A stretch of 36,444 nucleotides of DNA from Halorussus litoreus (GTDB lineage: Archaea > Halobacteriota > Halobacteria > Halobacteriales > Haladaptataceae), in contig NZ_QLVG01000057.1 of the NCBI RefSeq assembly GCF_003382685.1, forward strand, positions 1 through 36,444, given 5' to 3'. The notes under the pieces were generated by a model that had not been told where the DNA came from, did no database searches, and saw only the letters and a list, made by a program, of their open reading frames with translations. Shown in pieces: positions 16,742-19,788 of the stretch. The translations under genes were made by a program, and so were the position numbers. Each line of letters opens with the position of its first letter. The stretch's first letter is position 1.

Positions 16742-17407
16742 TCACTCGATGTAGCCGAGCGCCTGATCGATCCGACCGAGCTCCGGCCCGGTCGTCTCCT
16801 GTCCGACGACGTAGCCGTACTCGGTGGCCAGCAGGCCCGATCCGACCAGCGGCGCGCCGTAGTTGACGGTGCCGATGTCGGCGGGCACGCCCAGCACGTC
16901 TTCGAGCCGGTCGAGCTGGTCGTCGGTCGCCTTCGGGTGACAGAGCACGCCGTCGTTCGTGGCGACCGCGGCGGTGCCGACCGTGCGAACGTCGGCGAGT
17001 TCGCCGCGCTCGACGGGCACGTCGAGCGCGCGCTCGACCGCCTGCACGGCGTCGCGGGGCAGGTCGGGGTGGACGTACGCGCCGCTGTCGTTAGCGAGGA
17101 CGACGTTCCCGGCGGCGTTGATCTTGCCGGGGAGTTCGGTCACGGTCGCGCCCGTGGCGTCGGCGATGCGGTCGCGCTCGCGGTCGGTGACCCGGTTGCT
17201 GACCAGCAGGCCGTTCTCGTTGTCGACCGCGAGCGCGCCGACGGTCGAGGAGCCCCCGACCGTGGTCTCGACGGGATCGACGCCGAGTTCGTCGCTCACG
17301 TCGGCAACGATGTCGTCGTCGAGGTCCGGCCGGACCAGCAGGTACTCGTCGGTGGCGCGAGCGAACACACCGACGTACGACGAGCCGAGAAAGGCGGCGC
17401 GGAGCAA
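16742..17407 (-). CDS. tif6: Translation initiation factor aIF6
   Basis: A 221-residue aIF6 (eIF6), a pentein-fold anti-association factor that binds the large ribosomal subunit and blocks joining to the small subunit. The pseudo-fivefold repeat shows in recurring segments such as [45 protein letters not shown] and [19 protein letters not shown]. Length is normal. The first codon is TTG (17405-17407), 4 bp after the eL31 stop, and no ATG or GTG in this frame is available upstream of the conserved LRAAF start. The TTG start may be weak and coupled to eL31 translation. Confidence 0.93.
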
Positions 17408-17411
17408 AGCT

Positions 17412-17690
17412 CTACTCTGCGTGTTCCGCTTCGACGATGGTCTCGCCCTCTTCCTCGAAGCGGGCGGCGCGGACGCGAAGCTTGCTCGGGGGCTTCTTGC
17501 GGCCCTGCGACCAGACCTCCTCGTTGATCGAGGGGTCGAGGCGGACCTCGCTCTCGTCGACCTTGAAGTGCTTGGCGAGGTGCCCGCGGACCAGCGTCAT
17601 CGCCTTGTCGGCGCGCTCGTGCTTCGGCGCTGCTCTGACGTCCCGGAGCGGTACGGTGACGACCCGCTCCTCGAAGTCGTTGGCGCTCAT
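17412..17690 (-). CDS. rpl31e: Large-subunit ribosomal protein eL31
   Basis: A 92-residue ribosomal protein at the polypeptide exit tunnel region. Visible are [23 protein letters not shown], the [18 protein letters not shown] motif and the C-terminal [14 protein letters not shown]. Its ATG overlaps the stop of eL39 by one base (TAATG), the next gene upstream in the operon, and it is followed by aIF6 4 bp away. The gene order eL39-eL31-aIF6-eL20 is standard for archaea. Confidence 0.97.
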
Positions 17691-17842
17691 TATTCGTCGG
17701 TGTCCTGTCGCCGCCAGTTACGGCGCTTGGGGTTCTGCATCACGTCGCGGTCGGTCTTCATGATGACCCACGCGGGGACGCGGCTGTTCTGGCGGTCGAG
17801 CTTGGACAGGCGCTTTTTCTTCGATTTGGACTTCTTACTCAT
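17690..17842 (-). CDS. rpl39e: Large-subunit ribosomal protein eL39
   Basis: A 50-residue basic ribosomal protein. The translation begins [19 protein letters not shown] and continues with [25 protein letters not shown], the eL39 signature that lines the exit tunnel. It is the first gene of the operon. The TATA-like element at 17868-17875 lies about 28 nt upstream, so it is leaderless. Its stop codon TAA overlaps the ATG of eL31 (TAATG). Confidence 0.96.
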
Positions 17843-17867
17843 GGTACCACGTTGTTCCCCGCCGTCG

Positions 17868-17875
17868 CTTAAAAT
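17868..17875 (-). promoter_or_regulatory. TATA box of the eL39-eL31-aIF6 operon
   Basis: The minus strand reads ATTTTAAG about 28 nt from the eL39 ATG. Confidence 0.55.
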
Positions 17876-17939
17876 CGTGTTGCTTTGGCCCTCCGGCGGT
17901 CGATGGGGGTTCGCGCTACAGTTCGAACGGTTCGCCGCC

Positions 17940-18494
17940 TCACAGCTCGAACGATTCGACGGTCGAGTAGTCGGGACCCGCCTCTGTCAGGACGCTCTCG
18001 GTCAGTCGGACCTCGGTCACCTCGGCCGTGCCGACGGTCGGGTCCCGCTCCTCGACGGTGTCCTGCACCAGCTCCTTGCCGCCCGCGTGGTCCATACGCG
18101 CGAGGGTGACGTGCGGGGTGAACTCGTGCTCCTCGGAATCGAAGCCGAGCCGAGTCACCTCGCGCTCGATGGCCTCGTGGAGGCTGGTCAGCTCCTCGCC
18201 GCCGTCGCTCACGCCGAGCCAGAGCACCTTGATGTAGCTGATGTCGGGGAAGACGCCCAGCCCCTCGAAAGTGGCCTCGAAGGGCTCGACCCCAGCGTCG
18301 GAAACCGCCCGCCGGACAGCGTTCTTCACCCGGGGGAGCTCGCCCTGGTTCACGTCGCCGAGGAACTTGAGCGTGACGTGGGCTTGCTCTGGGTCGGTGA
18401 AGTCGAGCCCCGGCGCGTCCGCGAAGTGGTCCTGGACCTGCTCGATTTGGGCCGCGAACTCGTCGGGGAGATCGACGCTGACGAAGAGTCTCAT
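17940..18494 (-). CDS. thpR: RNA 2',3'-cyclic phosphodiesterase ThpR (2'-5' RNA ligase family)
   Basis: A 184-residue 2H phosphoesterase. The two catalytic H-x-T-x motifs are clear: HVTLKF at about 39-44 and HVTLARM at about 148-154. Family members open 2',3'-cyclic phosphates and join or cut 2'-5' linkages in RNA, with a proposed part in tRNA processing. The start [10 protein letters not shown] is characteristic. It is divergent from the TPR-protein gene and separated from the eL39 operon by about 98 bp (same strand), with no overlap. The reaction on a native archaeal substrate is not determined. Confidence 0.93.
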
Positions 18495-18639: not shown

Positions 18640-19455
18640 ATGACCGACCCGCAGGACGACGACCACGAGTTCTCCGAGGGCGAGGGCTTCGGCGACCCGT
18701 ACGAGGAGTTCGACCTCGACCCGCCGGAACTCGACGTGGACCCCGAGAAGGTCGACCCGGTGGACTCCCGAGTCGTCACCGACCTGCTCGACGACCAGCA
18801 GTTGTCCGACGACGAGGTGGACGTCGAGCAGTTGATCGACGTGGGGCTGAACTACATGGCTATCAACCGATACGAACAGGCTGCCGACACGTTCGAGCGC
18901 GCGGCCCGGTACGCCGCCGACGGGAGCGACCTCGAACAGGAGGCGTGGACCAACAAGGGCGCGGCCCACGCCGAACTCGACGAGTGGGACGCCGCCATCG
19001 GCGCGTACCGCGAGGCCATCAACGTCGACGAGATCGGTGAAGCCCGGAGCGAGTCGAGCGCGAGCGACGAGCGCGCGCAGGCCAGCGAGCACGCCGCGAC
19101 CGCCCACACGAATCTGGCGTACGCGCTCTGGGAGTCCGGCCGGAGCGAGCAGGCGCTCGAACACGCCGAGCGCGCGGTCGAGATCGACGAGCGGTTCGCC
19201 GAGGCGTGGTTCAACCGGGGGTTCTTCCTACTCGAACGCGGCCTCGCCGAGGACGCGCTGAACAGCCTCGAGAACGCTATCCGGCTCGGGATGCGCAACT
19301 CGCAGGTGCTCGACGAGAAGGCCCGCGCGCTCGAGGAACTCGGCGAGTACGACGAGGCCGAGGAGGTCGCCGAGGAGGCCGAAGAGCTCCGCCAAGAGGC
19401 CGAGGAGGAACTCATCCAGCGCGAGCAGGAGACCCGCGAGCGAGAGGGCAGATGA
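18640..19455 (+). CDS. Tetratricopeptide repeat protein
   Basis: A 271-residue acidic protein. After an acidic region (about 1-55), it has TPR-like helix pairs: VGLNYMAINRYEQAADTFERAARYA (68-92), EAWTNKGAAHAELDEWDAAIGAYREAI (101-127), HTNLAYALWESGRSEQALEHAERAVEI (152-178), AEAWFNRGFFLLERGLAEDALNSLENAIRL (about 183-212) and a last one ending in a Glu-rich helix. TPRs usually mediate protein-protein contact; the partner is unknown. A TATA-like CTTAACA lies about 30 nt before the ATG. The stop TGA overlaps the first of a chain of ATG codons that lead to the DUF424 gene. Confidence 0.85.
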   Translation: MTDPQDDDHEFSEGEGFGDPYEEFDLDPPELDVDPEKVDPVDSRVVTDLLDDQQLSDDEVDVEQLIDVGLNYMAINRYEQAADTFERAARYAADGSDLEQEAWTNKGAAHAELDEWDAAIGAYREAINVDEIGEARSESSASDERAQASEHAATAHTNLAYALWESGRSEQALEHAERAVEIDERFAEAWFNRGFFLLERGLAEDALNSLENAIRLGMRNSQVLDEKARALEELGEYDEAEEVAEEAEELRQEAEEELIQREQETREREGR

Positions 19456-19500
19456 CCCGCGAGGAGCGCGACCGATGACCCGCAAGGAGCGCGACCGATG
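19452..19500 (+). repeat. 23-bp tandem repeat of an ATGA start/stop junction
   Basis: ATG codons stand at 19452, 19475 and 19498, exactly 23 bp apart. The first two units are nearly identical (one G/A difference, GAGGAG versus AAGGAG) and the third begins ATGATACTC. Each ATG of the first two reads eight codons (MTREERDR and MTRKERDR) and ends at TGA in the next ATGA. The first ATGA overlaps the stop of the TPR gene; the last is the start of the DUF424 gene. Confidence 0.9.
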
Positions 19501-19788
19501 ATACTCACCGAGCGCGACACCGACGAGGGGCTGCTCGTGGCGGTCTGTGACGACGACGTACTCGGCGAGACGTTCGAGGACGACGGCGTCTCGCTCACCG
19601 TGACCGAGGAGTTCTACGGCGGCGAGTCGGTCGACGAGGAGACCGTCGTGGCCAGTCTGGCCCGCGCGTCGGTCGCCAACATCGTCGGCACCGAGGCGGT
19701 CGAACTCGCCATCGAGGAGGGGTTCGTCGACGAGGAGTGCGTCCTCGACGTGGCGTCGACCCGTCACGCGCAGTACCTCCGGATGTGA
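19498..19788 (+). CDS. DUF424 family protein
   Basis: A 96-residue archaeal protein of the DUF424 family (function unknown). MILTERDTDEGLLVAVCDDDVLGETF, FYGGESVDEETVVASLARASVANIVGTEAVELAIEEGF and the VLDVASTRHAQYLRM end are family traits. It is soluble and small, perhaps part of a translation or RNA factor, but no catalytic motif is visible. The start at 19498 is reached by the ATGA relay described at 19452-19500, so translation is probably coupled to the TPR protein. Confidence 0.82.
   Translation: MILTERDTDEGLLVAVCDDDVLGETFEDDGVSLTVTEEFYGGESVDEETVVASLARASVANIVGTEAVELAIEEGFVDEECVLDVASTRHAQYLRM

Follow-up and report, generated by a model that had tools for sequence, protein, structure and literature searches.

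The window, a 36,444-nt stretch of the 3.84 Mb genome of Halorussus litoreus, contains a gene for a tetratricopeptide repeat (TPR) protein followed on the same strand by a DUF424 gene. The 42-nt gap between the TPR stop and the DUF424 start is spanned by two mini-ORFs. Reading the sequence directly, we found ATG codons at 19452, 19475 and 19498 with an exact period of 23 nt, and TGA codons at 19453-19455, 19476-19478 and 19499-19501, each of which overlaps an ATG. An earlier note on this DNA had described the period, the two 8-codon units and the stop/start overlaps in the same way. The features of the junction are as follows.

18640..19455, plus strand: TPR gene, encoding a 271-aa tetratricopeptide repeat protein (ORF call; Pfam TPR_2, E 3.3e-21)
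19429..19455, plus strand: copy 0, the TPR tail ETREREGR and its stop, which aligns codon for codon with both mini-ORFs
19444..19447, plus strand: weak Shine-Dalgarno (SD)-like GAGG, 4 nt 5' of the ATG at 19452
19452..19478, plus strand: mini-ORF 1, MTREERDR and stop, 8 codons, with an ATGA overlap at each end
19463..19466, plus strand: SD-like GGAG, 8 nt 5' of the ATG at 19475
19475..19501, plus strand: mini-ORF 2, MTRKERDR and stop, 8 codons, with an ATGA overlap at each end
19486..19489, plus strand: SD-like GGAG, 8 nt 5' of the DUF424 ATG at 19498
19498..19788, plus strand: DUF424 gene, 96 aa (Pfam PF04242, E 4.5e-30)

The sole solved relative found for DUF424 is 2QYA, an uncharacterised protein (2qya_A, E 4e-5). 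Divergent from the TPR-DUF424 pair, on the minus strand at 16742-18494 of the window, lie the genes for eIF6, ribosomal protein L31e and a 2'-5' RNA ligase/LigT, a translation-related neighbourhood that also adjoins TPR-DUF424 in other Halorussus genomes.

The mini-ORFs are tandem copies of the end of the TPR gene. Tandem Repeats Finder places 3.1 copies of a 23-nt unit at 19431-19501; as this array begins inside the TPR tail, the end of the TPR gene represents a diverged copy 0. The alignment of the TPR tail with the mini-ORF scores 22, a value reached by only 1.5% of gene-pair tails, and mini-ORF 2 differs from mini-ORF 1 by one base. When a 27-mer was searched with up to 3 mismatches, it matched only the two array positions in the window and gave 0 matches in 100 shuffles. 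All three consecutive ATGA overlaps are of the kind that defines a termination-reinitiation (TeRe) gene pair, namely co-directional ORFs overlapping by 4 or 1 nt.

We consider it likely that the site is a stop-start relay that arose when the junction for termination-reinitiation between TPR and DUF424 (the TPR tail with its ATGA) was duplicated in tandem, in 23-nt steps. A ribosome that finishes TPR at the TGA at 19453-19455 would restart at the ATG at 19452 and translate 8 codons; after the stop of mini-ORF 1 it would restart at 19475, translate a further 8 codons, stop, and restart at 19498 to enter DUF424. The step of 2 mod 3 places the next ATGA at the end of every copy; the 46 inserted nt would therefore keep the coupling, and they leave both proteins unchanged. 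Duplications with lengths of 1 and 2 mod 3 would both spare the proteins, while length 2 alone would hand the ribosome on. In Haloferax volcanii, reinitiation is roughly halved at a stop-to-start distance of 13-14 nt and abolished at 22-23 nt (PMC10666635), and SD motifs help to a variable extent (PMC6728339); in E. coli, 15 nt at the 3' end of the upstream gene are enough for reinitiation. Given the limit of 22-23 nt, a gap of 42 nt should leave TPR and DUF424 uncoupled unless the mini-ORFs are translated. Duplicated junctions would persist where termination-reinitiation continues through every copy, since coupling in Haloferax does not survive gaps of about 22 nt. We infer that ribosomes use the relay at TPR-DUF424 and that coupling is what selection preserves; the units would also add Shine-Dalgarno (GGAG) sites that raise restart at DUF424.

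We compared the same junction in 17 other genomes of the genus Halorussus. The TPR-DUF424 pair is kept in all 17, with the TPR homologue immediately 5' of DUF424 in each. The junction is a direct ATGA in 14, a TGATG in one, an abutting stop and start in one, and a single mini-ORF unit in one, so that a count of units across relatives, which the earlier note had proposed, returns mostly none, once a single unit, and two in H. litoreus. The overlap typical of TeRe pairs is kept in 15 of 17 relatives as ATGA or TGATG, with one abutting junction and one joined via the mini-ORF. This last is the MAG SW_6_65_15, which has one 9-codon unit, ATGACCCACGAGAAGCGACAACAACGATGA, at TPR-DUF424. The unit (MTHEKRQQR) lacks an SD and has a step of 26 nt, also 2 mod 3; the steps of the two genomes, 23 and 26 nt, are 3 nt apart and therefore have an identical relay phase. 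A pattern for both kinds of unit matched only H. litoreus and SW_6_65_15, both times at TPR-DUF424, with 0 matches in the 16 others. A tree built from five neighbouring proteins places the window as sister to H. halobius (support 1.0), with SW_6_65_15 as the next branch (0.97). H. halobius, the nearest relative, has no mini-ORF unit, and DUF424 expression in the genus thus does not require the array. An SD-like motif at DUF424 is absent in 16 of the 17 other genus members, the exception (L031) having GGAG at 6 nt. Judged by these sequences, the units may have had a single origin followed by loss in H. halobius, or two origins, and by the same comparison the second unit is lineage-specific in H. 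litoreus.

Across the whole order, we searched 293 haloarchaeal genomes for two GGAG-N8-ATGA sites lying 20-50 nt apart. Among 68 distinct double sites, the ATG-ATG distance was 2, 0 and 1 mod 3 in 55, 9 and 4 cases, respectively, where 2 is the relay phase, and the mini-ORFs were open in 54 of the 55 relay-phase sites. The excess of 55 over 4 corresponds to p = 1.7e-12, a raw value that does not yet allow for the relatedness of the genomes and so overstates certainty; clustered numbers are more trustworthy. With the window added, clustering reduced the set to 26 independent gene pairs; both ORFs were present in 19 of these and in 0 phase-1 cases. Chains flanked by ORFs of at least 60 codons, one ending at the first junction and the other starting at the last, made up 31 of 39 relay-phase and 2 of 9 off-phase chains examined, gene context outside the window being judged from open frames rather than annotation. 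No bias was seen when ATGA was replaced by ATGC (8 sites, 3:2:3), and genomes of the phylum outside the order gave no relay-phase bias with the same pattern (5:13:5). With an SD spacing of 7 nt, 11 sites in relay phase (all open) were found versus 2 in phase 1, and most double sites were acidic repeats inside coding genes, in phase 0. No further SD-type relay was seen in a set of named haloarchaeal loci around DUF424 (L039-L095).

The order-wide mini-ORFs also carry the mark of their origin. Their tails are more similar to the end of their own upstream gene than to those of others (permutation p < 0.001), and their heads weakly resemble the head of the downstream gene (p = 0.05), both as predicted by a tandem duplication spanning the junction. 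The clearest case, L310, has the mini-ORF MSVTAVVRTVVRTEVTA followed by a stop, a downstream gene beginning MSVTAIVR and an upstream tail TEVTA before its stop. The earlier note had taken the array for a tandemly duplicated termination-reinitiation junction, a view borne out by units that copy the TPR tail plus ATGA, by the single junction in most congeners and by the order-wide phase lock.

Other haloarchaeal loci present further relays. Thiolase/ChsH2-type OB-fold pairs in several genera have one to three mini-ORF units (L300, at G207:C1:946792-946957, and L301, L302, L303, L305, L306, L307, L272 and L290); the units are mostly 50 nt, with 38 nt in L290 and three in tandem in G207 (L300), and the SD of the 50-nt units is often directly adjoined by an inverted repeat. 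At L304 (G061:C1:570818-570883), an unrelated gene pair flanks a closely similar 50-nt unit, MSHASASTPDVCPEVIA with its stop, so the unit may have moved from one locus to another. The idea of a widely mobile element is weakly supported, as a strict core pattern matched G061 and G207 alone. At L312 (G189:C3:712002-712122), four SD-ATGA junctions in exact 35-nt steps delimit three mini-ORFs between genes for an RsmB/F-type methyltransferase and DUF7122. Four genomes of one genus (G071, G162, G186 and G251; L308, L309) have a common relay unit, M(S/T)RQE(T/S)QR and stop, beside a gene ending in RQESQR; this unit is kept with base changes between species, and the downstream ORF has just 33 codons.

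Relays were also surveyed within the H. litoreus genome itself, using a sample of 836 kb (800 kb of stretches plus the window). ATG-only relay chains across gaps of 8-70 nt numbered 4, versus 0.35 expected from shuffled gaps, and wider gap limits gave 5 versus 0.82. GTG relays were near chance (ATG and GTG together, 10 versus 6.1 expected), and an excess was therefore counted for ATG relays alone. In four genomes, the end of the mini-ORF copies the tail of the upstream gene in 6 of 15 ATG/GTG relays, versus 0 of 116 non-relay pairs. A second two-unit relay, at G000:C20:14282-14339 on the minus strand (L155:14282-14339), lies between a UDP-GlcNAc 2-epimerase gene, which ends in LLTKRITY, and a hexapeptide acetyltransferase gene; its mini-ORFs read MVTKRIVYR and MTPTKRITYR, each followed by a stop. 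The Haladaptatus relative of this gene pair has one end, LLTKSITY, and no relay. In another relay of this genome, AVEPENQR and its stop are followed by MTVELEGQR and its stop (C4:136728-136769, minus strand). Many CGATGA pairs in the genome were rejected as relays, being located within genes or in other phases. At G000:C1:160946-161009 (minus strand), a tandem 29-nt repeat with CGATGA at both ends lies between two convergent genes; its internal stops rule it out as a relay.

There is a small chance that the 23-nt duplications arose recently and have no effect, that DUF424 starts de novo at its GGAG, and that the mini-ORFs are untranslated spacer. Two units are found in H. litoreus alone, the sister H. 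halobius has none, and the GGAG 5' of 19498 is missing from 16 of 17 other genus members, all in keeping with neutral slippage. However, a neutral spacer should be blind to phase, whereas relay and anti-relay phases stand at 55:4 across the order and neither the ATGC nor the out-of-order control is biased. This excess of lengths that are 2 mod 3 is best explained by selection against uncoupling. The earlier note had held that single junctions in relatives, together with copy-number variation of no effect, would reduce the relay to a recent duplication; the single junction is indeed found in nearly all congeners, but the haloarchaeal phase bias argues that relays work. Several observations nevertheless count against the relay at TPR-DUF424: the nearest relative H. 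halobius has none, the last GGAG could allow de novo initiation and make the relay dispensable here, and the SW_6_65_15 unit has no SD. Relay sites are also often lineage-specific, as expected for tolerated rather than favoured duplications, and the phase counts come from related genomes with gene context taken from open frames.

We give a modest chance to adaptive tuning, in which the number of units would set the TPR:DUF424 ratio, each step losing ribosomes or gaining them via its SD. The unit number does vary between 0, 1 and 2 within one clade, units 1 and 2 bring GGAG-N8 sites, and three mini-ORFs occur at other loci (L300, L312). The same variation is also predicted by slippage under purifying selection for coupling alone; tuning by unit number is possible but unsupported. 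Repeated -1 slippage at ATGA, with a change of frame at each junction and some TPR-DUF424 fusion protein as the product, is very improbable. The step of 2 mod 3 is compatible with it, and a minor frameshifted fusion arises at an AUGA overlap in M. tuberculosis; yet termination-reinitiation dominated in that system (PMC11260477), work on H. volcanii overlaps has treated them as termination-reinitiation, and two or three slips in succession would be rare. It is hardly credible that the mini-ORFs code for functional peptides or for a leader of the attenuator type: both are open, with many charged residues, but they are low-complexity copies of the TPR tail, and the relay peptides of different loci are unrelated to one another.

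Whether short overlaps between genes are selected for coupling or merely reflect compact packing has been debated. The sole difference between duplication lengths of 1 and 2 mod 3 (4 versus 55) is whether the ribosome is passed to the next start, and their ratio tests selection for coupling without an experiment. The recurrence of phase-locked relays across haloarchaeal sequences suggests that ribosomes really step through them. We lean toward the view that natural multi-step ribosome relays form a general class in haloarchaea: SD plus ATGA junctions between functionally paired genes (thiolase/OB-fold partner, RsmB/F-type methyltransferase/DUF7122, TPR/DUF424 and others) would have been copied one to three times and retained only in relay phase. 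The phase ratio would then be a natural experiment on the cost of uncoupling, and some 50-nt units may have spread between unrelated pairs in the manner of mycobacterial interspersed repetitive units (MIRUs). One prediction of the relay is that archaeal ribosomes are able to stop and restart two to four times in a row, translating only about 8 codons each time.

The closest known systems are the TeRe pairs with -4 or -1 overlaps in H. volcanii and E. coli (Huber 2019, PMC6728339; Huber 2023, PMC10666635), which share with TPR-DUF424 the ATGA overlap of co-directional genes, the SD inside the upstream ORF and the very short allowed distance. The known TeRe cases have one junction between two full genes, whereas TPR-DUF424 has a serially repeated junction with 8-codon intermediate cistrons; a term search of the two papers returned no wording on short ORFs, tandem or duplication. 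MIRUs (PMC12548453, citing Supply 1997) are likewise short repeated units; each carries an ORF coupled at -4 to the neighbouring gene, and the insertion is thereby tolerated and expression spared. They form a dispersed, apparently mobile family, whereas the TPR-DUF424 unit is a 23-nt copy of a local gene end. At TPR-DUF424, too, a repeated unit carries an ORF that overlaps the flanking start by 4 nt; we rejected it as a MIRU because it is not dispersed, occurring at one place in its own genome, at one (the same locus) in SW_6_65_15 and at none in the 16 others.

In the general bicistronic design, a leader carries the SD for a start that overlaps the leader's stop. Synthetic two-cistron leaders (PMC5995908) share with the relay a short ORF 5' of the target gene; they are engineered, single and started de novo, whereas the relay would start from the stop of the upstream gene. 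The first mini-ORF was rejected as a leader of this type, as it starts within the TPR stop junction with only a weak GAGG 4 nt 5' of it. The uPPE2-ppe2 system of M. tuberculosis (PMC11260477) shares with the relay a small ORF and an AUGA overlap; there the ORF delivers ribosomes to the downstream gene, which depends on it. That system is a single uORF behind a riboswitch, whereas TPR-DUF424 is a duplicated junction between two genes. The earlier note knew of no such chain in archaea, and in open-access papers we too found no description of duplicated-junction relays there, while MIRUs and short coupled uORFs work in a similar way. By analogy, the relay would resemble TeRe overlap coupling in repeated form, and also MIRUs and short coupled uORFs, and the idea is not unprecedented.
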